Assembly: GCA_030038995.1 (NCBI GenBank)
Contig: JASHQS010000185.1
Coordinates: forward strand, 1 to 35,173
DNA: 35,173 nt
Direction: 5' to 3'
Source of the DNA: Xanthobacteraceae bacterium
Lineage (GTDB): Bacteria; Pseudomonadota; Alphaproteobacteria; Rhizobiales; Xanthobacteraceae
The translations under genes and the position numbers were made by a program. This document shows positions 1 through 16,360 of the stretch, piece after piece (the first letter of the stretch is position 1; each line of letters starts with the position of its first letter). The notes beneath the pieces are model-generated. The model saw only the letters and a program-made list of their open reading frames with translations. It ran no database searches and was not told where the DNA came from.

Positions 1-105
1 GCCGGGCTTGACCCGGCAATCCATGCTGCGTCGGGGCCGCATGGATGCGCGGGTCAAGCCCGCGCATGACGGGGAAGTGGCGCTACATGAGCGGGATCTG
101 CTCTA
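1..105. repeat. Palindromic dispersed element, copy A (left end cut by window)
   Basis: The core is an inverted repeat: GGGCTTGACCCGGCAATCCATG near the left end pairs imperfectly with CATGGATGCGCGGGTCAAGCCC around 41-62. It is followed by a tail ending CGGGATCTGCTCTA at 92-105. The same core and tail recur at 12851-13043, where both outer ends are visible. The element has no coding capacity. The family looks like the intergenic palindromes common in Bradyrhizobiaceae, which is recollection, not a database result. Confidence 0.75.
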
Positions 106-158
106 GTACAAGCCAACACTGCACGTCCCGTGTCGCGGGACGTGATCCTCATTGGCAT

Positions 159-2294
159 ATGCCGAGGAAGGAGGCTGCTATTACAACTGGAAAAAGAGGC
201 CAGTCGGTGTTGACGGCCGCTGCAGATGGCGCATTTCGCCACGCGCTCGCGGCAATGCAGCAGGGTCATGCCGGCGCCGCCGAGCAATTTTTCCGGCAAG
301 TGCTGCAATTACAGCCTCGCCATGTCGCGGCCCTCAATCTTTTGAGCGTTCTTTTGGCCCAGCTCGGCCGATTTGAAGAGGCTGAAATTTACAGTCGGCG
401 TGCGCTCGCTGAAGACGCCACGTCGGACGCGACTTTCTCCAATTACGGACTGGTTCTCAAAGCGCTGATGCGGCCTGCCGAGGCATTGGAACAGTTCAGC
501 AAAGCACTGCAGATCAATGCTTCGATCGCGGATACCTGGAACAATCGCGGCGCGGTCTTTTCCGACTTGCGGCGCTACGGCGAGGCAATCCGCGACTTTG
601 ACCGCGCGATCGCGATCAAGCCAAATTTTTCCGAGGCTTTTTACAACAAGGGCAATGCTCTGGCGAGTTTGCAATCGTTTCAGCAAGCGCTTGCCGCCTA
701 TGACGAAGCATTGCGGCTCAACCCTGATCTGGCCCAGGCGTGGCTGGGTTGCGGCAACGTCGCGCTCGCGCTTCGCAACAGCGAGGACGCGCTGGTCGCT
801 TACGAACGGGCGCTGGCTCTTCGGGCCGATCTTGCCGAGGCCTGGTTGGGCCGCGGTACCGCCCTTGCCAAGCTGAAACGATACCAGGAGGCGATTGCCG
901 CGTACGGCAAAGCGATGGCGATGAAGCCGGCTTTGAACTACGTGGCCAGCCATCGACTTTATGCGAAGCTGGCTGCATGCGACTGGACGAACTTGGAAGC
1001 GGAGATCGAGGATTTTCTCACGACGATGAGAAAGGGGCGGCTGCTGAGCGATCCCTTCAATATGTTGGCGATACCATCGACGGCCGCGGACCAATTAAGC
1101 TGCGCCACGGGTCACATGGCCGACCAGCCGACCTTTGCGCCGCTGTGGCGCGGCGAAGTCGCTGTGCATGACCGCATTCGCGTCGCCTATCTGTCAGCCG
1201 ATTTTAACGAGCACCCAGTCGGTCATTTGATCGTCGGCCTTTTCGAGCATCATGACAAATCGCAGTTCGAGATAACCGGAATATCGCTTAGCGCCGATCC
1301 GGCCTCCGCAATACGGCAGAGAATAGTGGCGGCCGCGGAAAACTTCATGGATGTCGGGGATCAGAGCGACCAGCGCATTGCCGAACGGATTCGACAGTTG
1401 GAGATCGACATTTTGGTCGATCTCCACGGCTTCACCGCCGGAAATCGCAATGGCGTTCTGGCGCGCCGTGTTGCGCCCATCCAGGTCAACTTTCTAGGTT
1501 ATGCGGGAACGCTGGGCAGCGGCTCCGTCGATTACATCGTCGCCGATCCGACCGTCATTCCCCATGAGCATTTCCGTTTCTACAGCGAATCGGTCGTCTG
1601 GCTGCCCGAGAGCTTCATGCCGAACGACGCCGCAAAGCCGATTGCGGCGCGAACGCCGAGCCGCAGCGAGCTCAACCTGCCGGAGCGGGGCTTCGTGTTC
1701 TGCTGTTTCAATCAAGCCTACAAGATCAATCCGGCGATGTTCGACATCTGGATGCGGCTACTCGCCAGGAGCCCCGACAGCGTGCTGTGGCTGCGCGAAG
1801 ATGATGCCGTGGTTTTGCGTAACCTTCGGCTCGAGGCTGAGCGCCGCGGGGTGGCGGGGCATCGTTTGGTTTTTGCCGGGCGAACTGCGCTTCTCGCCGA
1901 CCACTTGGCGCGGCACCGACAGGCTGATTTGTTTCTCGACACGTCGCCTTATAATGCGCATGCCTCGGCGTGCGATGCGTTGTGGGCCGGTGTGCCGGTA
2001 TTGACGCAAATCGGCGGGACCTTCGCCGGCAGGGTTGCCGCTAGCCTGCTGCGTGCAATCGATCTGCCTGAACTGATCACTTCGACCCCGCAAGCCTATG
2101 AGCATCTGGCGACCGAACTTGCGACCAGTCCGGAGAGATCGGCGGCGCTCAGGGAGAAGCTGGCAAGAAATCGGCTGACGGCGCCGCTGTTCGACACGCG
2201 CCTGTTTGCCCGCCGTATCGAGGCCGCGTACACGGCCATGTATCAACGATATCGAGCCGGCTTGAGACCGGAGCACATCGATCTGGCTGGTTGA
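159..2294 (+). CDS. TPR + SPINDLY/OGT-type (GT41) glycosyltransferase 1
   Basis: Predicted cytoplasmic O-linked glycosyltransferase that transfers a sugar from a nucleotide donor to Ser/Thr of proteins. With the ATG at 159 the product is 711 residues. About seven TPRs occupy residues ~20-260 and the two-lobed GT41 domain ~335-700. The expected catalytic His is in SADFNEHPVGHL (H352) and the donor-phosphate Lys in FNQAYKINP (K522), matching human OGT H498 and K842 by motif. The reading frame stays open upstream into the palindromic element, so a longer protein is unlikely. GTG at 207, preceded by AAAGAGG, is a serious alternative start. No signal peptide is seen. Acceptor and sugar donor (GlcNAc, fucose or other) cannot be read from sequence. 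Confidence 0.9.
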   Translation: MPRKEAAITTGKRGQSVLTAAADGAFRHALAAMQQGHAGAAEQFFRQVLQLQPRHVAALNLLSVLLAQLGRFEEAEIYSRRALAEDATSDATFSNYGLVLKALMRPAEALEQFSKALQINASIADTWNNRGAVFSDLRRYGEAIRDFDRAIAIKPNFSEAFYNKGNALASLQSFQQALAAYDEALRLNPDLAQAWLGCGNVALALRNSEDALVAYERALALRADLAEAWLGRGTALAKLKRYQEAIAAYGKAMAMKPALNYVASHRLYAKLAACDWTNLEAEIEDFLTTMRKGRLLSDPFNMLAIPSTAADQLSCATGHMADQPTFAPLWRGEVAVHDRIRVAYLSADFNEHPVGHLIVGLFEHHDKSQFEITGISLSADPASAIRQRIVAAAENFMDVGDQSDQRIAERIRQLEIDILVDLHGFTAGNRNGVLARRVAPIQVNFLGYAGTLGSGSVDYIVADPTVIPHEHFRFYSESVVWLPESFMPNDAAKPIAARTPSRSELNLPERGFVFCCFNQAYKINPAMFDIWMRLLARSPDSVLWLREDDAVVLRNLRLEAERRGVAGHRLVFAGRTALLADHLARHRQADLFLDTSPYNAHASACDALWAGVPVLTQIGGTFAGRVAASLLRAIDLPELITSTPQAYEHLATELATSPERSAALREKLARNRLTAPLFDTRLFARRIEAAYTAMYQRYRAGLRPEHIDLAG

Positions 2295-2319
2295 GGTCGA
2301 TGTCGAGCGAGGCGCGAAA

Positions 2320-2353
2320 GCCTGCGCAGGTTCCGCGCCGACTCCGCGCAGGC
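2320..2353 (+). terminator. Possible hairpin after glycosyltransferase 1
   Basis: GCCTGCGC (2320-2327) and GCGCAGGC (2346-2353) form a perfect 8-bp stem with an 18-nt loop, 25 nt after the stop codon. It is followed by GCTATTTATCTT, which is not a clean T-run. It may be a weak terminator or only a chance hairpin in GC-rich DNA. Confidence 0.3.
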
Positions 2354-2439
2354 GCTATTTATCTTGATAGTTTCAATATGTTGCTGGCGTGGCGCGCTTC
2401 TGGTTGACTAACGCCCGACAACGGATTGCCTGAACCGCC

Positions 2440-4752
2440 ATGGCCGCGTCGCCGACTACGGACCTGCTGCAGGAGGGGCTCGCTTTGCATCGGCGCGGCG
2501 CCGTGGCGGAAGCGGCGGCGCGCTATACCGCGCTGCTGGCCGCCGAACCGCGCCATGCCGACGCGCACTACTATCTCGGCCTGATCGCCTGCCAGCAGGG
2601 TCGTTTCGCCGAGGGTGCCGAGCATGCGCACAACGCGCTCGCCGGCGACCCGGCGCATGCGCGCGCGCATATGCTGCTCGGCCGCGCGCAGAGCGCGCTT
2701 GGCCAAGGCGAGGAAGCGCTGGCAAGCTTCGACCGCGCGCTCGAACTGGCGCCGGACCTCGCGGCGGCCCACGGCCACCGCGCCGACCTGTTGAGCGATC
2801 TCGGCCGCCATGGCGAGGCGGTCGAGGCCTACGACCGCGCCTTGGCCGCGGAGCCGGACCGCGCCGAAGATTGGTTCAACCGCGGCGTCGCGCTCAACGC
2901 GCTGGGCCGGCGCGGCGAGGCGACGGCCAGCCTGGAACAAGCCATCGCCTGCAAGCCTGATCTAGCGCCGGCGCATCTCTTGCACGCAACATTGCTGGCA
3001 GAGCTTGGCCGCCACGAAGAGGCGCTGCAGAGCGCCGATGCCGCGATTGCGGCGGCGCCGAATTCGGCCGAGGCGTGGTTTGGCCGCGGCAAGCAGTGCC
3101 TGGCCGCCGGCAACCCGGCGGCTGCGGTCGACGCGCTTTTGCGCTCGCTCGCTCTCGGTGAGACGGCGGAGACGCGGGCGCTTCTGATCGATGCGCTCAG
3201 GTTTGCGAATCTCGCGACGACCCACGCCCGCGGCCGCGATCTCGTCGAACGCGCGCTCCGCGAAGGCTGGGTGCGTCCCCATGAGCTGATGATCCTTGCG
3301 ATCACGGCGATGAAGCGCGACCCGCGCATCAACGAGATCAGCGCCCGCGCCGCTGCGGCGTGGCCCGCTCGCCTGCCGGCGGCCGAAGTGCTGGCCGCCC
3401 CGTGCATTGCGGCACTGGCGCAACATCCGCTGTTTTGCCTTACCTTGCAGTCGGCACCCATCAGCGACGTCGCTCTCGAGCGGCTGGTGGCCAACGTTCG
3501 CCATGCTCTGTTGGCGGCGAACCGATCCGATGCGGCGGCGGATGAAGATTTGCTCCGGCTTTCCTGCGCGGTGGCGCGGCAGTGCTTCATCAACGAGTAC
3601 GTTTTTTCGCCGAGCCCAGACGAGGCGGAGCGGGCCGGCGAATTGCGCGCAGCTTTGGACCAGGCGCTGGGGGCGGGCGCGCCATGCCCGGCAAGCTGGC
3701 CTGCTTTGGTCGGCAGCTATTTTCCGCTGCACACGTTGGCGAATGCGGCGGCTTTGCTGGCCCGCTCCTGGCCGCCGGAGATACGCGAATTGCTGGTCCA
3801 ACAGGTCGAGGAGCCCCTTGAGGAGCGCCGCCTTGCCGGCGCCATTCCGGCGCTGACCGAAATCGGCGGCGGCGCGTCGCAAGCGGTGCGCCAACAATAC
3901 GAGGAGAATCCATATCCGCGCTGGACCAGAGCCGGGCCGCCGGCCCTGCCGCTGGTGCTCAAGGACCACTTGCCGCCGCAGAGCCTCGACATTCTCGTCG
4001 CCGGCTGCGGCACCGGCTTGGTCACGATCGAGCTCGCGCGGGCACGACCGAAAGCGCGCATCCTGGCAATCGACCTCAGCCTTGCCAGCCTCGGCTACGC
4101 CAAACGCATGGCGCAAAGTTTTGCTCTGAGCAATGTCGAGTTCGCCCAGGCCGATATCATGCAGCTTGCGGCGCTAGGACAGCAAAAATTCGATTTCATC
4201 GACGCCTCGGGCGTGCTGCATCATCTTGCCGATCCGTGGGCCGGCTGGCGCGTGCTGCTGGCGCTCTTGCGCCCGGGCGGCGCCATGCAGGTCGGCCTGT
4301 ACAGCGCGGCGGCGCGCCGCAACGTGGTCGCCGCGCGCGAGCTGATCGCGCAGCGCCGCTACCAGCCGACGCCGGCCGATATCCGGCGCTGCCGGGACGA
4401 GATTTTGGCCACACAGGACGGGTCGTTGCTCAAGTCGGTAGCGGCATCGCCGGATTTCTTTTCGCTCAGCGCCTGTCGCGATTTGTTGTTTCACGTCCAG
4501 GAGCACCGCGTGACCTTGCCGGAGATCAAAGCGTTTCTGGCCGCCAACGACCTGCAATTTACCGGGTTCATTCTACCGGCGCCGATTGCGAACCAATTCC
4601 GTGCACGCTTTCCCGATCCGTCCGCCATCACGGACCTCGATCGTTGGCGCGCCTTCGAATACGAGGCGCCGCACACTTTCGCCGGCATGTATCAATTCGG
4701 CGTGCGCAAAAGCGGCGCTGCCGGTGACGGAACGACAAGCCCGAGCCAATGA
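2440..4752 (+). CDS. TPR protein fused to class I SAM methyltransferase
   Basis: 770-residue protein. Residues ~5-245 are consecutive TPRs with typical LG..A...P spacing, then comes a helical linker. At ~490 there is the NPYPRW motif that often precedes this class of methyltransferase domain. Motif I is AGCGTGLV (GCGTG at 522-526), followed by an acidic strand end in ILAIDLS and a later FDFIDASGVLHHL segment. The fold is that of an S-adenosylmethionine-dependent methyltransferase; the substrate is unknown. No signal peptide is seen. ATG 2440 has only a weak ribosome-binding site. It lies 145 bp after glycosyltransferase 1 on the same strand, and the TPR arm suggests it docks to a protein, perhaps the same partner as the neighbouring OGT-like enzymes. 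That link is inference. Confidence 0.88.
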   Translation: MAASPTTDLLQEGLALHRRGAVAEAAARYTALLAAEPRHADAHYYLGLIACQQGRFAEGAEHAHNALAGDPAHARAHMLLGRAQSALGQGEEALASFDRALELAPDLAAAHGHRADLLSDLGRHGEAVEAYDRALAAEPDRAEDWFNRGVALNALGRRGEATASLEQAIACKPDLAPAHLLHATLLAELGRHEEALQSADAAIAAAPNSAEAWFGRGKQCLAAGNPAAAVDALLRSLALGETAETRALLIDALRFANLATTHARGRDLVERALREGWVRPHELMILAITAMKRDPRINEISARAAAAWPARLPAAEVLAAPCIAALAQHPLFCLTLQSAPISDVALERLVANVRHALLAANRSDAAADEDLLRLSCAVARQCFINEYVFSPSPDEAERAGELRAALDQALGAGAPCPASWPALVGSYFPLHTLANAAALLARSWPPEIRELLVQQVEEPLEERRLAGAIPALTEIGGGASQAVRQQYEENPYPRWTRAGPPALPLVLKDHLPPQSLDILVAGCGTGLVTIELARARPKARILAIDLSLASLGYAKRMAQSFALSNVEFAQADIMQLAALGQQKFDFIDASGVLHHLADPWAGWRVLLALLRPGGAMQVGLYSAAARRNVVAARELIAQRRYQPTPADIRRCRDEILATQDGSLLKSVAASPDFFSLSACRDLLFHVQEHRVTLPEIKAFLAANDLQFTGFILPAPIANQFRARFPDPSAITDLDRWRAFEYEAPHTFAGMYQFGVRKSGAAGDGTTSPSQ

Positions 4753-4793
4753 CGAAGCCGCCCCGGCGTCGCGAAGCGAGATCGCCGCGACGG

Positions 4794-5591
4794 TCAACGT
4801 GCCCAGCACGCCAACCAATTCATCGCCACCGGGCGCTGCTCGTTGATCGCAAGCCAGCGATCGATCGATTGCCAGCTCCGCATGCTCGCGAACTGGCTGG
4901 GATCGCGCGGCCCCTCGACAACGTCCACGACATCGTGACTGTCGGAAAACCGCGTTCTCAGAATCTGCGTGGCATTTGCTTTCGCGAAGTCGTGGCACTC
5001 GATTATCATGTCGCAATGGAGCGTTTCAGGCACCCGAGCCGGATGGAGAAGCTCAACCTCGGCGCCTTCGCAATCCACGATAAGAAGCGACCGCCCGGTT
5101 TGCGGCAAGACCCGACGCAATGAGTCGATCTCGCATGTGCCGGCGACGGTCAGTCGACTGCCGAGCCGGTTTGCAGCCGCTGCGCGGCGGCAGATGTCCT
5201 GGCCTTTCTGGTTACTTTCGAATGCGAACACACGCGCCTGCGGCAGCAACCGAGCCAGTCCGACCGCATAATATCCCTCGGCAGCACCAATATTGACGAC
5301 TACCGTTGGATTTCGGGCAACCGCCTGCGCGATGGCCGGGTGCAGTTCTGCCTCATAGCAACCGAGCAGCATTGGCGGCAAGTTGCCGTCGCCCCAGATT
5401 ACCTCCGGCAGCACTTTCATGCCGGCAAATGGGCCGCTGGCTACAATCCCGTCATGAGCCTGAAGCAGCATGTGCACAATTCCCATGCGCCTGATCTGGA
5501 CAGCAATCGTGAAGATTTGAAACAATCCCATGTCGCGTATGTCGCCAGCCCCGCCCCGTTCCTCGGATTTAAAGTCATCGGCACTGGCCAT
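4794..5591 (-). CDS. FkbM-like SAM-dependent methyltransferase
   Basis: 265-residue protein. SAM-binding motif I is NIGAAEGYY (100-108), with an acidic residue at the end of strand 2 in FAFES (E125). The motif IVDCEGAE (171-178) and the following MIIECHDF are typical of FkbM-family methyltransferases, which O-methylate sugars or polyketides. AG-rich GAGGGCGAG precedes the ATG at 5591. The gene converges with the TPR-methyltransferase (41 bp apart) and diverges from the TPR protein at 5688 across a 96-bp gap that must hold both promoters. A role in methylating the glycan made by this locus is plausible but unproven. Confidence 0.8.
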   Translation of the reverse strand: MASADDFKSEERGGAGDIRDMGLFQIFTIAVQIRRMGIVHMLLQAHDGIVASGPFAGMKVLPEVIWGDGNLPPMLLGCYEAELHPAIAQAVARNPTVVVNIGAAEGYYAVGLARLLPQARVFAFESNQKGQDICRRAAAANRLGSRLTVAGTCEIDSLRRVLPQTGRSLLIVDCEGAEVELLHPARVPETLHCDMIIECHDFAKANATQILRTRFSDSHDVVDVVEGPRDPSQFASMRSWQSIDRWLAINEQRPVAMNWLACWAR

Positions 5592-5687
5592 GAAGCTCGC
5601 CCTCGCAATGAACCCGTCAACTTACTGCAGGCCGCGATTGAAGATCAATGCCGCGATCCGCGGACGGCAGGTGGGGTATTCAACCGC

Positions 5688-6551
5688 ATGACCAAGCAAC
5701 CCGCGCGTCCGCCGCAAGCGACGACCCAAATGCCCGGCCGCTTCGACGGCCTGCTGCAGCAGGCCGTCATGGCGCTCAACGCCCAGCGCATCGACGATGC
5801 CCAGCGCTTGGCGGGCGAAGTGCTCAGGGCCGATCCGCGCCACGTTGCGGCGTTGAAGATCGCCGGCCGCGCGATGCGCCTGCAGGGCAGGGCGGCCGAC
5901 GCCATCGCGCTGTTGGAGCCGGCGGCGCGCGTAAGCCACGACGCCGAGCTCGACACCGAGCTGGCCTTGGCGCTGCGGCAGGCCGGCCGCGCGGATGACG
6001 CGGCGTCGCGGCTGCGCCGCGCCGTCAAGCGAACTCCGCCGTACCCGCCGGCGTTCGCCGAATTTGCCCAGCTTCTGATTTCGCTCCAGCGCTTCGACGA
6101 GGCCGCCGAAACGCTGCGGCGCGGCGTCGACGCCGCGCCGATGGCATCAGCGCTCCACGCGCAGCTCGGCCTTTTGCTGCTCGAGCGCCGCAACCATGCG
6201 GAGGCGAAAGCGGTGTTTGGCCGGCTGCTCGCCCTCTATCCCGGATTTCCCGATGCGCTGTTCGGCCTCGGCAAGACCCACCAGGAGCTGCACGAGAACG
6301 AGCCGGCCGCAGCCTGTCTGCGGCAGTACCTGATGGCACGGCCGGCGCATTGGGGCGCCTGGATCAGTCTCGGTCATTGCCTGTTGGCGCTCGGCGATTT
6401 CGCGGCGGGCTACGACTGCTTCCGCACCGCCGCGCGCGGCGATCCCAAGCACTACACCTACGCGCTGTCGTCGCTGGTGAAAGCGCCACGCGGCCGATTC
6501 TGGCTCAAACCGAGCGCCGGCGCGGAGTTTTTGTTGGGAACGAAGCGATAG
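5688..6551 (+). CDS. Tetratricopeptide-repeat protein
   Basis: 287-residue protein made almost entirely of TPR helices from about residue 20 to 260, ending in a basic aromatic stretch RGRFWLKP and GTKR. There is no catalytic domain, signal peptide or membrane segment, so a scaffold or adaptor role is likely. The frame is open far upstream, but that part is antisense to the FkbM-like gene and does not look like protein. ATG 5688 follows GGTGGGG with reasonable spacing. It converges with the gene ending at 6647. Confidence 0.8.
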   Translation: MTKQPARPPQATTQMPGRFDGLLQQAVMALNAQRIDDAQRLAGEVLRADPRHVAALKIAGRAMRLQGRAADAIALLEPAARVSHDAELDTELALALRQAGRADDAASRLRRAVKRTPPYPPAFAEFAQLLISLQRFDEAAETLRRGVDAAPMASALHAQLGLLLLERRNHAEAKAVFGRLLALYPGFPDALFGLGKTHQELHENEPAAACLRQYLMARPAHWGAWISLGHCLLALGDFAAGYDCFRTAARGDPKHYTYALSSLVKAPRGRFWLKPSAGAEFLLGTKR

Positions 6552-6646
6552 ATGCCAAAGCCGTCAAACGAGCCACCAACGATCAGAGAAAGCCGTTGCG
6601 ATCGACGGCGCCGCGTCGGTCCGAACTCTACGAAGCGACCTCCGAT

Positions 6647-7369
6647 TTACCGCTTCGCCGCCCGGAAATTGCGGCGGTAGACGGCGGTTTCCTGGCGCAG
6701 CGAATCGTTAGTGTCGCTGAACCGCTCCATCGCTTCGGCAGACAGCGCCTCGCAGCGCGCCGTCCAGGTTTCACGCTTCACCGGCAGGCACTGCACCAAG
6801 GGCGTGCCCTTGGGCAGCACGCCGTTGAAGGCGGCGTCATGCCAATGCGCGGGAAATTGCACCGGCACGTCGCGATAGGCGTCGCAATCGACCAGCCCGG
6901 TCAGCGCCGTGAACGGCAGGTCGCGGCGGTTCACCGGGTGGGTGAACAAGAGCGAATAGCCGGACGGCGCTTCGATGGTCCAGAAGTTGACGAACTTGAT
7001 GATGTAGCGGTCGTCGTCGAAGAACGGCGAGCCGACCGCCTGGATCGGATCGTGAAAATCGATCGGCGAAAACGCATGATTCGACGCGGCGCCGGACGGC
7101 ATGTCGAGATTCCAGGTGAATTCGCCGTCCTGTACTTTCAGGTCGGTGGCCAATGGGATGAGAAATCCGTAAGTCATGGCGTCGATGAACGGCGGGCAGC
7201 GTTTGAGCGTCTCCTGCTGGTCCCCCGAGCGCGGGTTGACCACCCGCTGCGGCATGGCTTTGAACCATTCCGGCAAGCCGAGCACGGCCGGGATCGGCTC
7301 CGGCAGCACGCCGGCAAGCTCGGGCGGGCAGCGAAACGTCAAGGTCATCTCGTCGGCTTTTGGCTCCAT
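6647..7369 (-). CDS. Conserved protein of unknown function (DUF6065-like)
   Basis: 240-residue soluble protein with many Pro, Trp and Phe residues. Recognisable stretches are KRCPPFIDAMTYGFLIPL, KFVNFWTIEAPSGYSLLFTH and GVLPKGTPLVQCLPVKRE. From memory these match a family listed as DUF6065, also seen in phage genomes; this could not be checked. No function is known to me. The start is well supported: GGAGGGG lies 6 bases before the ATG at 7369. It sits 52 bp downstream of glycosyltransferase 2 on the same strand and is probably co-transcribed with it. No signal peptide is seen. Confidence 0.75.
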   Translation of the reverse strand: MEPKADEMTLTFRCPPELAGVLPEPIPAVLGLPEWFKAMPQRVVNPRSGDQQETLKRCPPFIDAMTYGFLIPLATDLKVQDGEFTWNLDMPSGAASNHAFSPIDFHDPIQAVGSPFFDDDRYIIKFVNFWTIEAPSGYSLLFTHPVNRRDLPFTALTGLVDCDAYRDVPVQFPAHWHDAAFNGVLPKGTPLVQCLPVKRETWTARCEALSAEAMERFSDTNDSLRQETAVYRRNFRAAKR

Positions 7370-7421
7370 AATAAAACCCCTCCGCCCTGCGCCAGGCCGG
7401 CGCCGCCGTTGCGATCCATTA

Positions 7422-9734
7422 CTACGCGAGCGGTTCGACCGTGATGGGCCGTGGCGCTTCGCCGCGCTGGTGGATGTCCCAAATGATTTTATAGGCCGCT
7501 TCGATGTGCCGGCGCAGGCGGTCGGTGTCGAACAGCGGATAAGTGGATCGGTTGACGTCGAGTCTCTCGCGGATCGACTGCAACAATGCCGGTTCGGCGG
7601 CGAGCTTCACGGCCAGCGCCTCGTAGCCTTCGAGGCTCGTGGTGACCATTTCGGGCAGGCCGACGGCCTCGAGCAGGCTCGAGCCGACCCGGCCGGCAAA
7701 CGAGGCGCCGACGCAGGTGAGCACCGGCAATCCGGCCCAGAGCGCGTCCAGCGCGGTCGAGTGCGCGCCGTAAGGCAGCGTATCGAGAAAGAGGTCCGCG
7801 CGGCGATGGCGGGCGAGGTGGTCCTCGATGCGTTGCAGCCGCGGCGCAAATATAAGCCGCGCCGGATCGAGGCCGCGCCCGGCGAATTCGCGGCGGAGGT
7901 TTTCCATGGCAACATCGTGCATCTTCGGCAGCCATAGCAAGCTTTCGGGCACGCGCTGCAGGATGCGCGCCCAGGCCGCGAAGATGCTCGCGCTGATCTT
8001 GAAGCTGCGGTTGAAGCAGCAAAACACGAAGCCATTTTCCGGCAGGCCGAGCTCGGCCCGCGTCGGGACCACCGGCGCGATCTGCCGTGTCGTGTCGCTG
8101 GGGTGATAGCAGTCCGGCAAGTGGATGATGTTCTCGCTGAAATAACGCTGCTCGGCCAACGGCAGCACGGTCGGATCGGCGAGAAAGTAATCGATGAAAT
8201 CCGCGCCCGTCGTGCTCGCATAGCCGAGATAGGCGACCTGAACGGGCGCCGGACGCAGCGCGAAGCTGCCGACCCGGTTGCCGCGCGTGAGCCCATTCAA
8301 ATCGACCGCGATATTGACGTCGAGCTCTCTGATAAGTTCTGCGATCCTGCGATCGGAGCTGGACGATACGTCATGGAAGCGATCGAACGATTTGGCGATT
8401 CGCGCGCGGATGGTGCTGCCGTCGTTGCGGCCGGTCGATAGCCCGACAAGCTCGAAATCGGTGCGGTCGTGACGCTCCAAGAGCGCAACGATCGAGGCCG
8501 CGACCGCGTGGCTGCGGAAGTCGGAGGAGACATAGGCCACCCGCAGTTTGTCCGATTTCGCGACGGCGCGGCGCGGCAGCGGCCTGATGGCCGGTGGCAA
8601 GCTGCGGCGCAGATGGTCCTGCGCGCAGATCTGCAGATAGGACGGGTTGCCGAAATAGAACAGCGGGTACGTGATCCCGATAGTGTGCCTCTTATCGATG
8701 ATCCCGGCTTCGGCAATCTCGGCAAGACGTGCGGCTTTCGTCCAATCACAGGCGTCAAGCGCAATAAAACCCAGCGACTCGAAGACATGCGGATGACGCG
8801 GGTCGAGCGCCAAAGCGCGTTCGTAATCGCGGACCGCTTCCTCATGACGGTTCGGGCCGAGCACATTGGCGCGGTTGTTGAGGATGTCGGCGCGGTCGGG
8901 GGCGATGGCGAGCGCGCGATCATAGCTGGCGAGCGCCTCTTCTGCGCGTTCGAGAGCGGCCAGCACGTTGCCGCGGTTGAATAGCAGTTCGGGGTCGTTC
9001 GGCGAGAAGGAGAGGGCGCGATCAAAAGCGGCCAACGCCTCCTCGGTTCGCCGCAGCTCGATCAGCAAATTGCCGTAATTGTTGAGGATCGCGATATGGT
9101 CGGGTTTCAGCGCCAGCGCCCGCTGGTACGGCGCAACCGCCTCTTCGTGTCGGCCCAGAAGACACAGCACGTCCGCATAACTGCCAAGCGCCGCAACGTG
9201 GTTCGGCATGAGCCGCAGCAGTTTTTCGTAACACCGACACGCCTCGCCAAACCGGTTGCCAAGCGCGAGCGTGTTGGCGCGATTGAACAGGGCTGGAGCA
9301 TGGTCCGGCCGGATCGCCAACGCGCGATCATAGCTGTCAAGGGCCGCTTCATGGCGTCCGATTTGCGACAGCAAAACACCGCGGTTGAAGTGACAATCGG
9401 CGTCGCTTGGCCGCAGTTCGACGAGCCGGTCGTATTTGGCGAGCGCCTCGTCGCGGCGGCCGAGCGCGCTTAAGGCAAATGCACAAACCGCCAGAGCCTC
9501 GGGTGCATCCGCTCGCAGCCGGACGGCGCTCTCGGCGAGACGCAGCGCCTCGTCGGGCCGGCCTTGCTGCATTCTCAGCATGCCAAAGAGATGCAGCGCG
9601 TCGAAATGACTGGGCTGACGCGCCAGCAAAGCGGCATAGGCCGACTCCGCTTCGGCCAGGCGGCCTCGGCGATGCAGGCTCAATGCGTGTTGGACATCTC
9701 CAATCGCCGCAGACATTGATCGCTCGCGCGACAT
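7422..9734 (-). CDS. TPR + SPINDLY/OGT-type (GT41) glycosyltransferase 2
   Basis: 770 residues from the ATG at 9734 (MSRERSM...); the second Met at 9716 is an alternative, and the frame upstream of these does not look coding. TPRs fill residues ~10-330, about nine units, the longest array of the three OGT-like proteins here. The GT41 domain runs ~390-760. Catalytic-site equivalents are SSDFRSHAVA (H409) and FNRSFKIS (K579). The usual HP after the acidic loop is HA here. The sugar-site loop reads DLNGLTRGNR. The protein is cytoplasmic, with no signal peptide. It diverges from the methyltransferase gene at 9946 across a 211-bp intergenic region and leads into the unknown gene ending at 6647. 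Confidence 0.9.
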   Translation of the reverse strand: MSRERSMSAAIGDVQHALSLHRRGRLAEAESAYAALLARQPSHFDALHLFGMLRMQQGRPDEALRLAESAVRLRADAPEALAVCAFALSALGRRDEALAKYDRLVELRPSDADCHFNRGVLLSQIGRHEAALDSYDRALAIRPDHAPALFNRANTLALGNRFGEACRCYEKLLRLMPNHVAALGSYADVLCLLGRHEEAVAPYQRALALKPDHIAILNNYGNLLIELRRTEEALAAFDRALSFSPNDPELLFNRGNVLAALERAEEALASYDRALAIAPDRADILNNRANVLGPNRHEEAVRDYERALALDPRHPHVFESLGFIALDACDWTKAARLAEIAEAGIIDKRHTIGITYPLFYFGNPSYLQICAQDHLRRSLPPAIRPLPRRAVAKSDKLRVAYVSSDFRSHAVAASIVALLERHDRTDFELVGLSTGRNDGSTIRARIAKSFDRFHDVSSSSDRRIAELIRELDVNIAVDLNGLTRGNRVGSFALRPAPVQVAYLGYASTTGADFIDYFLADPTVLPLAEQRYFSENIIHLPDCYHPSDTTRQIAPVVPTRAELGLPENGFVFCCFNRSFKISASIFAAWARILQRVPESLLWLPKMHDVAMENLRREFAGRGLDPARLIFAPRLQRIEDHLARHRRADLFLDTLPYGAHSTALDALWAGLPVLTCVGASFAGRVGSSLLEAVGLPEMVTTSLEGYEALAVKLAAEPALLQSIRERLDVNRSTYPLFDTDRLRRHIEAAYKIIWDIHQRGEAPRPITVEPLA

Positions 9735-9945
9735 GGAATTCAGCTCATCGCCGGCGGAAATGCTGCGTCTGACGGCGCCAAGATAGGTATTTTCCAGACA
9801 TGCCGGGCAGGCTATCGCCGTTTGCCGCCCTGGTAAACCTCTCGCTTGCATTCGTCCCAGCGCACGACCCGGCCGGTCCCCCATCATCGGTGTGGCTTTT
9901 TCGATTGGCTTTACAAAATTTACGTCCGCGGGTAACGGAGTTGTA

Positions 9946-10959
9946 ATGGACGACGCCATCGATCCACTGACGCGGCTTGCCATCCGCCATGGCACCGACA
10001 AATGGGGGCCGCATTTCTATACACCGGTGTATCACGAACTGTTTTCGCGGCTGCGCGACCGGCCGATCCGGTTGCTGGAAATCGGCGTCGGCGGCTATGA
10101 GCTCAAGACCTCGGGAGGCGCGTCGCTCGCGATGTGGGCGGACTACTTTCCCGAAGGACAGATCACCAGCATCGACATCGTGGAGAAGCGCTTGCCGCCG
10201 CATCCGCGGATCAAGCTGTTTCAAGGCTCGCAGGATGATGCGGCGTTGCTCAGGAGGGTGCGCGACGAGCGAGGCCCGTTTGACATCATCATCGACGACG
10301 GCAGTCACGTCCCCAAACACGTGGTCGCCAGCTTCCAGCATCTGTTTCCGACGTTGACCGATGGCGGCACCTACGTCATCGAAGACATGCAGACTGGCTT
10401 CTGGCCGCAATTCGGCGGCTCCATTCTGCACGGCGGCGACATCGTGAAGCTGGCGCGCACTGCGATCGAGTGCCTCAATCATGCGGAAGTCGTGGTCGCC
10501 GATCGAACGCATGCGTTCCCACCGTTCGCCAGGCAGATCAAGTCCTTTCGCGCCTATCACAACCTCTTCGTCATCGAGAAAGGCGACAATCACGAGCCGT
10601 CGAATTTTGCCTACGACCTCAAAAATCCTTGTGCGGTCAAAGCGCTGCAAACGATCGAGCAGGAGCTTCAACGAGCACCGACCGCCGCGGGCATGGCGAA
10701 TCTCATCGACGTGTATCTGAGGGGCGGAAATCCAACGCGAGCGAAGGAAATTGCCGATCGGGCCTTGATGCAATGGCCGGCCAACGCGGCTGTGCTGACG
10801 GCCGCCCACCACGTGGCGGCGCGCCGCGGCGATATACCGGCAGAGATCGATTGTCTGGAACGCCTTTTGCAGATCGAGCCGGACAACGTGGTGCTGCAGC
10901 GCGCCCTGGCGGACGCCCGCACGCAACTCGAACCGCCAGAACCACGCCGGGGCGACTGA
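9946..10959 (+). CDS. Class I SAM methyltransferase with C-terminal TPR-like region
   Basis: 337-residue protein. SAM motif I is LEIGVGG (44-50), followed by ITSIDIV, then IIDDGSH (115-121) and VIEDMQT (144-150). This pattern resembles the macrolide-sugar O-methyltransferases (MycE/TylE type), which are metal dependent, so a sugar hydroxyl is a reasonable substrate. Residues ~230-325 form helical TPR-like repeats. ATG 9946 follows ACGGAG at 5 bases. The stop overlaps the start of the next gene by one base (TGATG), so the two are translationally coupled. The assignment to a sugar substrate is inference from family and neighbours. Confidence 0.85.
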   Translation: MDDAIDPLTRLAIRHGTDKWGPHFYTPVYHELFSRLRDRPIRLLEIGVGGYELKTSGGASLAMWADYFPEGQITSIDIVEKRLPPHPRIKLFQGSQDDAALLRRVRDERGPFDIIIDDGSHVPKHVVASFQHLFPTLTDGGTYVIEDMQTGFWPQFGGSILHGGDIVKLARTAIECLNHAEVVVADRTHAFPPFARQIKSFRAYHNLFVIEKGDNHEPSNFAYDLKNPCAVKALQTIEQELQRAPTAAGMANLIDVYLRGGNPTRAKEIADRALMQWPANAAVLTAAHHVAARRGDIPAEIDCLERLLQIEPDNVVLQRALADARTQLEPPEPRRGD

Positions 10960-11825
10960 TGGCCCATTATCATCTGATGCATTGCGTGCCGCCCGACCCC
11001 CGCGTGCACGGCCTCAACGGCTACAAGGAAGTCATCGAGACCGTGGCCTGGGGATTGGAGCAGCTCGGTCATCAGGCCAGCTATGCGCTCAACCAAAGCG
11101 TCCGCGACGCCACCAACATCGTGTTCGGCGCCCAGGTCATGCCGATCGCGGCGCTCAAGCGGCTGCCTGAGGGCACTATCATCTACAATTTCGAGCAGAT
11201 GCGCGAGATCACGGCAGCGGCGCAGATCCGCGCCGAAACCCGCTACTACGCGCAGGTGCCGCATTTCCAAGTCTGGGATTATACGCCGGCCAACCTGCCG
11301 AGCTGGCGCACGCTCGGACGCTATCGGGTCAAGATCGTTCCGGTCGGTTACGCGCCGATCCTGACCCGCATTCCGAAGGCGCCGCGCCAGGACATCGACG
11401 TGTTGATCTACGGCATGAGCGGCGAGCGCCGGCTGCAGACTTTTCACGGACTGTCGCAGCGCGGACTGTCGACGGTTTTCGTCAGCGGACTTTACGGCGC
11501 GGCGCGCGACGAGCTGATTTCCCGCGCCAAGATCGTGCTCAACGTCAATCTCTATCCGCAGACAAGAATCTTCGAAATCGTGCGGGTGTCGTATCTGTTG
11601 GCGAACCGGAAGGCGGTGGTGGCCGACCTCGATGCCGACACCAGCATCGACGACGACATCCGGCCGGCGGTCAGGCTTGCCTCGTCGCTGCAAGAGTTTT
11701 TGAGTCTGTGCGACAGCCTCGCCAATAACGAGCGGGAGCGCACCAAGCTGGAAGAGCTCGGATTTTCGTGCATCAGCCGGCGCGACATCCGCGATATCCT
11801 CAAAGGCGCGTTGGCAAATCCGTAG
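10959..11825 (+). CDS. Glycosyltransferase-like protein (GT-B, CgeB/group 1-like C-terminus)
   Basis: 288-residue protein. The C-terminal half has the layout of a GT-B nucleotide-binding lobe: VLIYGMSGERR, then RAKIVLNVNLYPQTRIFEIVRVSYLLAN, then KAVVADLD. It resembles short group 1 / CgeB-like glycosyltransferases. The N-terminal half is less conserved and opens MAHYHLMHCVPPDPRVHGLNGY. No signal peptide or membrane helix is seen. The start overlaps the previous stop (TGATG, with GGGGCG just upstream). It is the second gene of a methyltransferase-glycosyltransferase-epimerase run. Donor and acceptor are unknown. Confidence 0.72.
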   Translation: MAHYHLMHCVPPDPRVHGLNGYKEVIETVAWGLEQLGHQASYALNQSVRDATNIVFGAQVMPIAALKRLPEGTIIYNFEQMREITAAAQIRAETRYYAQVPHFQVWDYTPANLPSWRTLGRYRVKIVPVGYAPILTRIPKAPRQDIDVLIYGMSGERRLQTFHGLSQRGLSTVFVSGLYGAARDELISRAKIVLNVNLYPQTRIFEIVRVSYLLANRKAVVADLDADTSIDDDIRPAVRLASSLQEFLSLCDSLANNERERTKLEELGFSCISRRDIRDILKGALANP

Positions 11826-11875
11826 TCCGGGCGGCGCTTTGCGCAATCCGGGATACTGCCTTATGGGATAGCCGC

Positions 11876-12853
11876 ATGCGGTTGGTGGGCAAGAACGTCG
11901 TCGTCACCGGTGGCGCCGGATTGATCGGCTCTTATCTAGTTGATTGCCTGGTCGAGCGCGGCGCGCGCGTCGTCGTCGCCGACGATTTTTCGAAGGGACG
12001 GCGCAGCCATCTCGCCGGCGTCATCGACCGGATTACGATCCGGGAGGGCGATCTCGAACAAGCCGCCGCCATGGCCCGCGCGCTTGACGGTGCCGAAATC
12101 GTCTTCCACCTCGCCAGCCGCGCCTACGGCATCGGCTATTCGTCGCAAAATCATCTGGCGCTGCTGGCGCACAACGAGCGGATCACCAACAATCTGCTCG
12201 ATGCTCTGGTCAGGCGGCCGGTCCCGCATCTGTTGGTCTGCTCATCGTCGTGCGTCTATCCGGACGACGGGCCCGACACGGTTGCGGAGCTGCCGGTGTT
12301 TTGCGGCGAGCCGGAGCAGGCGAACTGGGGCTACGGTTGGGCCAAGCGCCTGCTCGAGCAGAAAGCGGCGCTGCTGGCGCAGGCGACCGCCATGCCGCTG
12401 ACCATCGTGCGGCCGTTCAACATCTACGGCGAGCGCTATCGCTGGGTCGGCGCCGCGTCGCAAGCGATCCCGATGCTGGTGAAGAAGGTGATGGACGGCG
12501 ACGATCCGGTCGTGGTCTGGGGCTCCGGCACGCAGCGGCGCAACTACGTGCATGCCGCCGATTGCGCCGAGACTATCGCGGCAGTGGTCGAGGCCGGTTT
12601 TGTCGGCACTGTGAACATCGGCACCGAAGACACGGTGTCGATGCTCGAACTGGCCGGGACGATATGCCGGCTCGCCGACCGCCGGCCGCGCATCGTCACC
12701 GACCCGAGTCGGCCCGAAGGCCGGCGCGTCAAGAGCTGCAATGCCGCTTTGCTGCGCAAGGTCTATCCCGGATTGGAGCAGCGCATTTCGCTCGAGCAGG
12801 GCGTGTTGCGCATGATCGCTTGGCATGCCGCGGAGTTCGGCACAGTGACCTAG
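11876..12853 (+). CDS. NAD(P)-dependent SDR nucleotide-sugar epimerase/reductase
   Basis: 325-residue extended short-chain dehydrogenase. The Rossmann motif TGGAGLIG is at 11-18 and the catalytic pair Y153/K157 is in YGWAK. SSSCVYP (C126) and VVVWGSGT....HAAD resemble GDP-fucose synthase and GDP-mannose 3,5-epimerase, where this Cys is an epimerisation residue. The partner His of GDP-fucose synthase (in SHVIP) appears as Gln here (Q196 in SQAIP), so the exact product cannot be named. It probably makes or edits the sugar nucleotide used by the adjacent transferases. The ATG follows GGGATAG, 50 bp after the glycosyltransferase-like gene. The TAG stop lies inside the terminal repeat of the downstream palindromic element. 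Confidence 0.85.
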   Translation: MRLVGKNVVVTGGAGLIGSYLVDCLVERGARVVVADDFSKGRRSHLAGVIDRITIREGDLEQAAAMARALDGAEIVFHLASRAYGIGYSSQNHLALLAHNERITNNLLDALVRRPVPHLLVCSSSCVYPDDGPDTVAELPVFCGEPEQANWGYGWAKRLLEQKAALLAQATAMPLTIVRPFNIYGERYRWVGAASQAIPMLVKKVMDGDDPVVVWGSGTQRRNYVHAADCAETIAAVVEAGFVGTVNIGTEDTVSMLELAGTICRLADRRPRIVTDPSRPEGRRVKSCNAALLRKVYPGLEQRISLEQGVLRMIAWHAAEFGTVT

Positions 12854-13043
12854 AGCAAATTCCGTTCGAATCGACTCGAATTTTCCACTCGTCATTGCCG
12901 GGCTTGACCCGGCAATCCATGCGGCAGAACCGCTTCCGCGGCCATGCGACAATGCCTTCAATCGCGACAGCTCAGCATGGATGCGCGGGTCAAGCCCGCG
13001 CATGACGGGGAGGATTGCTTCAAGATGAGCGGAATATGCTCTA
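12851..13043. repeat. Palindromic MITE-like element, copy B (complete)
   Basis: The ends are an imperfect 14-bp inverted repeat: TAGAGCAAATTCCG (12851-12864) and CGGAATATGCTCTA (13030-13043). Nested inside is a second inverted repeat, GTCATTGCCGGGCTTGACCC (12891-12910) against a GGGTCAAGCCCGCGCATGAC-type arm ending near 13007. The centre differs in length from copy A at the window start while the arms are conserved. There is no reading frame of interest. The first three bases are the stop codon of the epimerase gene. Confidence 0.8.
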
Positions 13044-13079
13044 GGACGCCGCGTTCCGCGGGCGCAGCGAAGCAACATT

Positions 13080-15182
13080 TCAGCGAGCTTGTGCCTCCCT
13101 CTGCACCGCAAAGCTCGCTGGCGGCCGTCCGTCCTGATAGGCCTGCCACATGGTGGCATAGGCCGCTTCGATGTGCCGGGTGAAGCCGGCGGTGTCGAAC
13201 AGCGGATGAGTTTGCCGGTTGCGCGCCAGTTTCTGCTTCAGCTCAGCGCATAGCGCCGGATCCTTCGCGATCTTGAGCGCCAGCGCCTCGTATTCGGCGA
13301 GCGAAGTGGTCACGAGCTCCGCCATGCCGACCGCCCGATCGACGCTGGCGGCGACGCGCCCGGCAAAGCTCGACCCGAGGCAGGTGAGCACCGGCAGCCC
13401 GACCCAGAGCGCTTCGGTCGCCGTGGTGTGGGCATTGTAGGGGAGCGTGTCGAGAAACAGGTCGGCCTGGCGTTGCCGCGCCAAATGGTCGGCCGCGAGC
13501 GGTACGCGCGGCGCGAAAATCAAGCGTTCGGCGGCGACGCCGCGCCGCTCGGCTTCCGCGCGCAGGTTGCGCGAAGCAATGGTGTTGTACTCGCGCAGCC
13601 ACAGCACGCTGCCCTCGATCTCGCGCAGCAGCCGCATCCAGATGTCGAACATCGCCGGATTGATCTTGTAGGAGAGGTTGAAAGCGCAGAACACGAAGCC
13701 TTTTTCGGGCAATCCAAGTTCGCCGCGCGTCGGCGTAACCTCGGCAACGGCTCGAGTCGCGTCGGTCGGCAGATAGGCATCGGGCAGCCAAGCCGCCTTC
13801 TCGGTGTAGGATGCGACGTGCTCGAGCGGCAGCACGGTTGGGTCGGCGATCACGTAGTCGAAATAGTCCGCGCCGAGCGTGCCGGGAAAGCCGATGTAAT
13901 TGACCTGAATGGGCGCCGGGCGGCTGGCAAAGACGTTGGTGCGCGCGCTTTCCAGAAAGCCGACGAGATCGACGGCGATATCGATTTCGCGCTCGCGCAA
14001 CAGCGCGCCGATCTCCGCGTCGCTTTTGGCGCGGACGTCGACGAAATGCTCGAAGGCGCCTTGCAGTCTTTGGCGAATGCCCCGCTCTTGCTGCGGTCCG
14101 AATGACACCGCCGTCACGTCGAAGCGCGTCCGGTCGTGGTGCTCGAACATTCCGGCTGTCAGATACGCGATCGGATGCTCGCGAAAATCGCCCGAGACGT
14201 AGGCGAGACGAATGCGATCGTGACGATAGATTTCGCCGCGCCACAACGGCGCGGCGGCGGGAAATCGCAGCTGGCTGAATTTTTTGGCGCAGCGCAGATG
14301 GTCCTCGACCGACGATGAAACCGCGAGCGCCACGAACGGATTGACCACCGTGCCGCGCGCGATGGCGGCGAGCAGGCGCTCGCGCTCAATTTCGAAATTG
14401 CTCCAATCGCACAGGTGCATTTTGGCGGAATATCGCATGCTGCGCGCTTCGGAATCCTCCGGTTGCAGCGCCAAGCCCTTGTCGTAGGCGGCGATCGCCT
14501 CCTCGTAGCGGCCGATGTTGGAATGGATATTGGCCATGTTGTTGTAGGCGTCGGCAAAATCCGGCTGCAGTGCGATCGCTTTTTGGTAGCTGGCGAGCGC
14601 CTCGTCGGAGCGCCGCAACTCGGCCAAGGCGTTGCCACGGTTGAGGTGGGCTTCGGCGAAATCTGGCTTGAGCGCGATTGCGCGCTCATAATCGGCCAGC
14701 GCCTCCTTGACGCGTTTGAGGGCATGGCGCGCGGTGCCGCGATTGATGTAGGCCTCGGCAGAGGCCGGCGCCTGGGCGATGAGTTCGTCGTATTGACGCA
14801 ACGCATCAGCCGGCCGACCGGCGTGCAGCAAAGCGGTGGCGTAGTTGCTGCGCGCATTGGCGTGACGCGGATCAAGTTGCAGCACTTTCTCGTAGCTGAG
14901 CGCCGCCGTTTCGTAGTTACCTGCCATGCTGAGTGCGACGGCGAGATTATAGTGGACATCCAACATGTCGGGTCTTATCTGCGCCGCCCGGCCGAACATT
15001 TCGGCCGCCGCGCCGAACTTCTGCTGCTGGGCATAGACCATCGCCAGCGAATAGATGCAGCCGAAATTATCGGGCTTCTTTTTCAGAAGCCGGCTGTAGG
15101 CTTTTGCGGCGTCGGACAGGCGCCCCGCGCGCTGGTGCGCGATCGCGGCCTGCAGCTCGACCATGTCTTTATTCGTCATCAT
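13080..15182 (-). CDS. TPR + SPINDLY/OGT-type (GT41) glycosyltransferase 3
   Basis: 700 residues from the ATG at 15182; Met at 15179 or 15164 are alternatives, and no strong ribosome-binding site is seen for any. TPRs cover ~10-250 and the GT41 domain ~320-690. The catalytic His is in SGDFREHPIAYL (H336) and the donor-site Lys in FNLSYKINP (K506). The loop that reads NGYTKGAR in human OGT is VGFLESAR here, so the Thr and second Gly are missing, unlike in the other two copies. It lies 73 bp downstream of the alpha/beta hydrolase on the same strand. It is cytoplasmic by absence of a signal. The acceptor is unknown. Confidence 0.9.
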   Translation of the reverse strand: MMTNKDMVELQAAIAHQRAGRLSDAAKAYSRLLKKKPDNFGCIYSLAMVYAQQQKFGAAAEMFGRAAQIRPDMLDVHYNLAVALSMAGNYETAALSYEKVLQLDPRHANARSNYATALLHAGRPADALRQYDELIAQAPASAEAYINRGTARHALKRVKEALADYERAIALKPDFAEAHLNRGNALAELRRSDEALASYQKAIALQPDFADAYNNMANIHSNIGRYEEAIAAYDKGLALQPEDSEARSMRYSAKMHLCDWSNFEIERERLLAAIARGTVVNPFVALAVSSSVEDHLRCAKKFSQLRFPAAAPLWRGEIYRHDRIRLAYVSGDFREHPIAYLTAGMFEHHDRTRFDVTAVSFGPQQERGIRQRLQGAFEHFVDVRAKSDAEIGALLREREIDIAVDLVGFLESARTNVFASRPAPIQVNYIGFPGTLGADYFDYVIADPTVLPLEHVASYTEKAAWLPDAYLPTDATRAVAEVTPTRGELGLPEKGFVFCAFNLSYKINPAMFDIWMRLLREIEGSVLWLREYNTIASRNLRAEAERRGVAAERLIFAPRVPLAADHLARQRQADLFLDTLPYNAHTTATEALWVGLPVLTCLGSSFAGRVAASVDRAVGMAELVTTSLAEYEALALKIAKDPALCAELKQKLARNRQTHPLFDTAGFTRHIEAAYATMWQAYQDGRPPASFAVQREAQAR

Positions 15183-15255: not shown

Positions 15256-16146
15256 CTACGGCTTATCGCATGAGATCACGAAATCGCGGATACGGCTTAC
15301 GATGTCCTCGCCTGTCAAAAGCGGCACGTGGCCCTGGCCCGGCACTTCGACCGCTTCCATGCCGGGGTGGCGCGCCGCCATGGCTGCAAGCGTCGCCGCC
15401 GAGAGGATGTCGGAATTTTCGCCGCGGATCACCAGCATCGGCACGCGGATAAGCGAATCGAACTCGTTCCATAGCGGCGGCAGCGGCTGCTCGATGTCGA
15501 TCGCGGCGAGCGCGCGCGCGATCCGCACGTCGTAGGTCGGCACCAGCGCGCCTTCGTTCATGCGCCAGGCGCGCTCGGCGGCGGCAAGCCATTGCTCGGC
15601 GGTGAGGTTTGGAAATTGCGCGTGGAACAACTGGCGCAGAATCTCGGCGCCCTCGGTAAAGCTGCGCGGCTGCGGCAGCTTGCCGACATAGCTTCGGATG
15701 CGCGCCAAGCCCTTGGGCTCGATCACCGGGCCGATGTCGTGCAGCACGACGCCGGCAATGAGCGTCGGATGAGGGACGCCGAGATGCATGGTGAGCAGCC
15801 CGCCACGCGAGCTGCCGATGAACACCGCGGGGCCGACGGCGAGCGCGGTGAGCACGGCAACGAGATCGCCGAGCTCGACCAGCAGATTGTAATTGTCCGG
15901 ATTGCGGTCGTATTCGGACCGGCCGCGCCCGCGTGAATCAAGGGCAATGACGCGGCGCGGGCCGGCCGCCGCCAGCGCCGGCGCGAGCGCCGCGAAATCG
16001 GCGACGGTGCGGGTGAGCCCGGGCAGGCAGACGACCGGGCGCGCCGCCGCGAGCCGCGGCCCATAGTCGCGCACGTGCAGCCGCAGGCCGTCCGGCGCGC
16101 TGATAAAAACGCTGTTTCCCTGGTCGGACGCGACGCTGCCGGACAT
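15256..16146 (-). CDS. Alpha/beta hydrolase
   Basis: 296-residue cytoplasmic hydrolase of the alpha/beta fold. The nucleophile elbow is GSSRG (S113), the acid is D246 in ENSD and the base is H273 in GQGHVPLL. The oxyanion region is LPGLTRT (41-47) and the DSRGRGRS stretch (70-77) is typical of the family. The nearest relatives by pattern are lactonase or esterase-like enzymes; the substrate is unknown. The start at 16146 is chosen because GATGAGG lies just upstream and the MSGSVASDQG opening fits the family; the open frame continues upstream without protein-like sequence. It is transcribed towards glycosyltransferase 3. Confidence 0.85.
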   Translation of the reverse strand: MSGSVASDQGNSVFISAPDGLRLHVRDYGPRLAAARPVVCLPGLTRTVADFAALAPALAAAGPRRVIALDSRGRGRSEYDRNPDNYNLLVELGDLVAVLTALAVGPAVFIGSSRGGLLTMHLGVPHPTLIAGVVLHDIGPVIEPKGLARIRSYVGKLPQPRSFTEGAEILRQLFHAQFPNLTAEQWLAAAERAWRMNEGALVPTYDVRIARALAAIDIEQPLPPLWNEFDSLIRVPMLVIRGENSDILSAATLAAMAARHPGMEAVEVPGQGHVPLLTGEDIVSRIRDFVISCDKP

Positions 16147-16197
16147 GTCGACCTCATCGGAGCTCTTGGCGATACAGATGATGCAGATAAAGGCCGG

Positions 16198-16360
16198 ATG
16201 GTGCAGAGCGCAACCGTTGTTCTGCCGGGCGGCGAGCGCGCCCGGCAAACGTTGGCCCACGATCCGGACAATCCGCGCGGGCATGTTTTGTTGGGCCGCG
16301 CGCTCGCCGCGCTTGGACGGCCCGCCGAGGCGCTGGCGAGCTGGCTACGATGCGCCGCGG
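16198..16360 (+). pseudogene. TPR remnant on the opposite strand
   Basis: In the gap between the hydrolase and slt, the plus strand encodes an ATG (16198, after AAAGG) and about 54 residues with one clear [30 protein letters not shown], preceded by ARQTLAHDPDNP. The frame then runs antisense into slt with no TPR-like sequence. This looks like the 5' end of a decayed TPR gene related to those of the island. Chance similarity in alanine/leucine-rich GC-rich DNA cannot be excluded. Confidence 0.45.

Follow-up and report, generated by a model that had tools for sequence, protein, structure and literature searches.

A TPR-GT41 glycosyltransferase island at a conserved porin locus in Xanthobacteraceae, with the porin as candidate acceptor

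The HMW1C/NGT N-glycosyltransferases are relatives of glycosyltransferase family 41 (GT41) that modify an exported surface protein in the cytoplasm. GT41 enzymes such as human OGT, Xanthomonas XcOGT, plant SPINDLY and Thermobaculum TtOGT (PMC4683255) join an array of tetratricopeptide repeats (TPRs) to a GT41 domain with a conserved His and Lys. A similar plan is found in Caulobacter FlmG, a cytoplasmic TPR plus GT-B enzyme in which the TPR domain binds flagellin and the glycosyltransferase (GT) domain modifies this target before export (PMC7591256). In addition, O-glycosylation of a porin has been reported in Campylobacter (PMC3909276). Here, we describe a 35,173-nucleotide stretch of DNA (the window), which is the whole of contig C97 from the metagenome-assembled genome (MAG; 4.6 Mb, 91% complete) of a Xanthobacteraceae soil bacterium and whose left 15 kb hold an island with three TPR-GT41 proteins. 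The island differs from the described GT41/OGT systems in having three paralogs per island, in the company of methyltransferases (MTs) and a GT-B enzyme, and in a recurrent linkage to a porin gene. Whereas FlmG puts pseudaminic acid on flagellin, the window enzymes have GT41 domains, come as three paralogs with methyltransferases and have a porin neighbour, and neither flagellin nor nonulosonic-acid genes are among the genes identified in the window. The window proteins also differ from the NGT enzymes, as the NGT family model, with a curated cut-off of 1000 bits, gives them only 20.9 and 32.6 bits. We propose, with middling confidence, that this TPR-guided island glycosylates, extends and methylates an exported porin before its export through Sec, the genomic context pointing to the porin as the target.

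The three GT41 proteins and their locus

The three full-length TPR-GT41 proteins that an earlier note had recognised at 159-15182 hold up in our analysis. GT41a (159..2294, + strand) and GT41c (13080..15182, - strand) each carry 7 TPR units and GT41b (7422..9734, - strand; start likely at 9734 or 9716) carries 9, counted by eye and with Pfam, in agreement with the earlier count. The Glyco_transf_41 domain (PF13844) scores 258-272 bits in these proteins against a cut-off of 25 (E 9.8e-81, 3.8e-77 and 1.8e-76 for GT41a, GT41b and GT41c), and each of them keeps the catalytic-site His (DFxEHP/DFRSHA), the donor-phosphate Lys (N-x-[SA]-[YF]-K-I) and the AH of LDTxPYxAH. Human OGT (7ntf) can be aligned to GT41c at E 6e-129, and GT41a has a 92% ortholog at locus L052. 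Intact TPR-GT41s are expected to O-glycosylate proteins, and glycosyl transfer to protein is likely. No further GT41 genes occur elsewhere in the assembly of the window genome. Across the family, GT41 was found in 89 of the 247 sampled Xanthobacteraceae genomes and in 21 of 42 genera, so in this family the idea that OGT-like proteins are rare in bacteria is wrong. Other alphaproteobacterial MAGs carry GT41 genes in tandem, five in one case (L063 7701-18658) and four in another (L064 5887-13944), with peptidase M16 genes after them.

The island occupies a locus with the conserved order gatB - porin - abh - slt - dapA. To its right lie the flanking genes for an alpha/beta hydrolase (abh; 15256..16284, -) and a lytic transglycosylase (slt; 16345..18633, -), both identified by Pfam and synteny, then dapA and smpB, and the housekeeping DNA beyond 15.2 kb also holds udg, spoT, pdxJ, era and parC. 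To its left the island is truncated because the window is an entire contig, and the porin gene (Porin_2) almost certainly sits just beyond this end, as gene order in the same genome and in a relative suggests. In the window genome, contig C247 reads gatB - TPRMT2 - porin and ends in the same interspersed palindromic repeat of 106 bp that opens the window (1..106, no strand), the assembly being broken at this repeat between the porin and GT41a. The exact 106-bp overlap was rejected as proof of contiguity, since the genome contains about 40 near-identical copies of the repeat; the case for contiguity is the synteny with genome G018, in which a single contig carries porin, GT41a and TPR-methyltransferase B (TPR-MT B) in this order on one strand, with 92% DNA identity to the window.

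Congeners that have GT41 hold variable sets of the same gene families in the same place, with orthologous sets kept at about 85-94% identity, and congeneric islands also hold a TPR-sulfotransferase (L041) and FlmG-like TPR-GT9 enzymes (L157, L054). In congeners that lack GT41 (L137-L141), dapA-slt-abh or slt-abh is intact and no GT41 lies beside abh, and an island-free locus in another genus reads slt-abh-porin-...-gatB (L162). We considered gatB and slt as separate island sites and rejected this, as they belong to one locus. Scattered neighbours in relatives had been named earlier as a sign against a dedicated system; instead, relatives keep homologs of GT41, TPR-MT, the TPR-only protein D, protein E, GT-B and the short-chain dehydrogenase/reductase (SDR) together at the same locus.

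GT41-porin adjacency and a shared TPR segment

The neighbourhood of GT41 and porin genes recurs across the family. In a first sample of 61 genomes with 34 GT41 loci, a Porin_2 gene lies within 10 kb in 11 of the 34, compared with at most 0.19 expected at random placement, an expectation that ignores relatedness and hotspot effects. A second sample consisted of about 49 new family-wide GT41 loci, chosen on the basis of score and genus while their neighbours were still unseen, and 20 of these have a porin within about 3 kb. Taken over all loci, 13 genera have a GT41 gene at most about 3 kb from a porin, mostly at the gatB-porin-abh-slt locus. Genus g45 provides a second genomic site, as its six genomes carry a porin followed by GT41, with a gap of 67-196 bp, away from both gatB and slt. 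The porin-adjacent GT41s form several lineages, with 14 parsimony changes on a quick tree, at least 5 of which are forced by well-supported branches. Because several lineages are involved and their orientation varies, a single insertion inherited vertically fits poorly, whereas repeated arrival or replacement beside the porin fits.

A single docking module seems to be common to enzymes that perform different chemistry. The module was recognised in TPR-MT B, in which a TPR segment of ~185 residues (residues 3-188; 2446..3003, +) is about 61-66% identical to GT41 TPR segments in G018, G002 and G006, and those GT41 segments are 64-68% identical to TPR-GT9 enzymes of G012 and G017. The segment is therefore common, at about 61-67% identity, to TPR-GT41 and FlmG-like TPR-GT9 enzymes of congeners, and the remaining cross-class TPR pairs reach at most 49% identity, with a median of 33%. 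GT41a, GT41b and GT41c of the window are without this segment, the 43% identity between GT41b and TPR-MT B being within background. The presence of the same segment on three chemistries at the same locus argues for a common acceptor, and together with the single conserved porin neighbour it points to one main acceptor. This leaves unsupported the earlier suggestion that TPR arrays of different lengths serve different acceptors.

Some further signals were set aside. Within-genus co-occurrence of the porin and TPR enzymes (13/13 vs 2/7; Fisher p 0.001) was not relied on, because on the slt tree the GT41 state changes only about three times. We also rejected the idea that a SEC-C tail links GT41 to Sec in general, as only 1 of 170 GT41s has it. 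This lone SEC-C GT41 (L224 8320-10548) lies directly after a SecA-like gene whose SEC-C tail matches.

The accompanying enzymes

The ten genes of the left 15 kb run in the order GT41a, TPR-MT B, FkbM C, TPR D, protein E, GT41b, the MycE-like TPR-methyltransferase MT G, GT-B H, SDR I and GT41c. The two TPR-methyltransferases, the FkbM-like methyltransferase, the GT-B-like protein, the TPR-only protein and the SDR listed in the earlier note are all present, and the open reading frame of protein E had been overlooked.

TPR-MT B (2440..4752, +) was identified by Pfam, and the nearest Protein Data Bank (PDB) match of its methyltransferase domain is 8hkr (E 4.3e-20), which we take to be M. tuberculosis Rv2067c because the Rv2067c paper cites 8HKR (PMC10739865). 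Other class I methyltransferases also match, among them PKMT2 (5doo, E 1.7e-5) and a D-glucose O-methyltransferase (6uv6, E 3e-7), so the substrate of TPR-MT B may be lysine or sugar. The protein lysine methyltransferases Rv2067c and PKMT2 are thus its best named PDB matches, and in contrast to them TPR-MT B is TPR-fused.

MT G (9946..10959, +; start likely at 9946) belongs to the Methyltransf_24 family, and its methyltransferase domain matches MycE (3ssm, E 7.7e-48) and TylE (8ia9, E 1.8e-44). The alignment retains DDGSH and IED, motifs with a metal/base role. Only chain residues 183-396 of 3ssm align and the MycE N-terminal domain has no counterpart in MT G, which carries C-terminal TPRs in its place and sits in a presumed protein-modification island. 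As MycE and TylE act on antibiotic sugars, sugar methylation is a natural guess for MT G. In a GT41 island of genome G012 (L054 11271-12420, contig C148), an apparently broken MT G homolog, matching in pieces and with stop codons, lies ~160 bp from the porin. The third methyltransferase, FkbM C (4794..5591, -), passes the FkbM-family model TIGR01444 with 40.0 bits against a cut-off of 37.7.

The start of GT-B H (10959..11825, +; start likely at 10959) overlaps the stop of MT G. H matched no Pfam, NCBIfam or PHROG family, and its AlphaFold2 model (predicted local distance difference test, pLDDT, 86.7) identifies it as a GT-B glycosyltransferase, with Foldseek matching 7qsg (E 3e-9, template modelling score, TM, 0.64). 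H-like GT-B domains are fused or adjacent to GT41 in other families; in G427, from another family of the order, the domain is fused to a TPR-GT41 in a single open reading frame of 1247 residues (L118 7005-10745). SDR I (11876..12853, +; Pfam E 1.7e-47) resembles nucleotide-sugar epimerases/dehydratases. Its nearest PDB match is GDP-mannose 3,5-epimerase (2c59, E 1.9e-25) and it is also near GDP-fucose synthase, although the GDP-L-fucose synthase model NF047922 gives it 107.8 bits against a cut-off of 500.

The TPR-only protein D (5676..6551, +; identified by Pfam, start uncertain) and protein E (6647..7369, -) are convergent. Protein E belongs to the phrog_7084 family (E 4.5e-45) and has a predicted dUTPase-like fold (model pLDDT 85.5), with Z of about 10-11 to many dUTPases and a root-mean-square deviation of about 2.8 A over 116 residues to 2py4/8hrv. 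Its alignment contains the stretches GLVDCDxY and KGTPxxQ, which resemble dUTPase motifs. E and a TPR protein of ~270 residues form a conserved tail-to-tail pair across the order (L075-L077, L079, L093, L097), also where no GT41 lies at the pair, and for this reason a glycosylation role for protein E was set aside. The D/E pair is probably a separate module. A second copy of E (67%) is found on contig C53 of the window genome. The earlier picture of a dedicated O-glycosylation and glycan-methylation system therefore survives in part: it is consistent with the activity expected of TPR-GT41s and with the nearness of MT G to MycE and TylE, but the D/E pair looks separate from it.

Candidate acceptors and biological meaning

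We infer the activity, donor, acceptor and order of steps as follows. In the cytoplasm, the TPR arrays of GT41a, GT41b and GT41c would dock on new, unfolded porin, or on a few exported surface proteins, and the GT41 domains would move sugar from a nucleotide-sugar donor onto Ser/Thr. GT-B H may attach a further sugar, after which MT G and FkbM C would methylate sugar hydroxyls, and TPR-MT B, bearing the shared TPR module, would methylate the same acceptor on sugar or lysine. The modified porin would then leave via Sec and insert in the outer membrane. The flagellin genes of the window genome (G000) are on contig C105, where an FlmG-like TPR-GT9 and a TPR-sulfotransferase lie beside them (L165 7906-10416 and 15518-16969). 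This contig possibly holds a second TPR-guided modification locus of the same genome, and TPR enzymes beside exported substrates would then be a theme. Together, the FlmG precedent, the TPR enzymes beside flagellin on C105 and the porin O-glycosylation of Campylobacter favour pre-export modification of the porin in the cytoplasm. More tentatively, gatB-porin-slt may act as a surface-antigen cassette, in which GT41 lineages, TPR-MTs, FlmG-like TPR-GT9s and TPR-sulfotransferases are swapped beside the porin, several of them, in the genus of the window, sharing a porin-recognising TPR module, with strain-specific glycosylation, methylation or sulfation as the outcome.

Several observations weigh against the porin as target. 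The ancestral locus without GT41 already includes the porin (L142, L161, L162), so that part of the adjacency seen there could stem from a neutral hotspot of insertion, and counts from related genomes are not independent. The relative orientation of GT41 and porin differs among genera, with no fixed operon; the majority of GT41 loci lack a porin in their vicinity; and G017 combines GT41 with the lack of a clear porin homolog. Ser/Thr is no more frequent in porins beside GT41 than in porins without it, and Ser/Thr, Asn and Lys content was rejected as a signal of a porin target because none differs with an adjacent GT41. TtOGT, with an intact active site, was inactive in vitro (PMC4683255), and an intact active site is therefore no proof of activity. 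These points leave room for a true protein O-glycosylation island that acts on diverse or cytoplasmic targets, the porin being a bystander at an insertion hotspot. The neighbours of porin-free GT41 loci, which include FkbM methyltransferases, a different outer-membrane barrel and an L,D-transpeptidase, fit such an island, and with the flagellin-adjacent GT41s they indicate that the porin is not the sole possible partner. We nevertheless regard the bystander explanation as rather unlikely, because the adjacency is far above random and recurs in the second sample, at another genomic site and in several GT41 lineages.

Other explanations place the acceptor further away. An FlmG-type glycosylation of flagellin from a distance is suggested by the flagellin genes of the genome, by GT41 genes 0.1-1.6 kb from flagellin arrays (G055 and G059), by GT41s beside flagellins outside the family (L128, L129) and by TPR-MT B homologs next to flagellin in two other genera (G021 and G026; L163 9618-11999 and L164 5397-7697). 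It is improbable, given that the flagellin of the window genome is on another contig with its own FlmG-like TPR-GT9 and TPR-sulfotransferase, that most GT41-free congeners keep flagellin and that the flagellin-adjacent GT41s sit on long branches apart from the three of the window. Assembly or decoration of exopolysaccharide, capsule or lipopolysaccharide, instead of protein, appears quite improbable. Members of the GT-B (H), FkbM, SDR and MycE-like MT families are also known from pathways for polysaccharides or small molecules, and some congeneric islands hold GT4 enzymes. However, family scans of the window proteins did not reveal a polymerase, a flippase, Wzx/Wzy or an ABC exporter in the island, the TPR arrays carried by GT, MT and sulfotransferase enzymes fit a role in protein docking, and the GT41 acceptors described to date are polypeptides. 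Finally, the strong variation in content among congeners, the lack of MT G in the clusters of G018 and G009, which match in other respects, and the palindromic repeats, found at the contig edge and around 12897-12976 of the window, could reflect TPR genes that gathered loosely at a locus prone to recombination and have no joint function. This is very improbable in light of the orthologous sets conserved among congeners, the kept active-site motifs and the recurrence of GT41-porin adjacency across genera.

The enzymes of the island belong to known families, and the recurrent porin linkage and shared TPR module make it a distinct form of what is probably TPR-guided protein modification. In the open-access literature searched, of which coverage was incomplete, we found no report of GT41 or TPR enzymes that modify a porin. 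The acceptors of bacterial OGT-like proteins are mostly unknown, and the porin beside GT41 in 13 genera is a concrete candidate whose purification from outer membranes is feasible, which opens the question of the target to mass spectrometry. In addition, the sharing of the TPR segment suggests that targets are recognised through modules, which glyco-engineering could reuse. If the surface-antigen cassette is real, it would be without precedent among TPR-GT41 systems in combining a porin target with a modular docking domain common to several chemistries. Modification of the porin, if true, would bear on phage receptors, permeability and host recognition.

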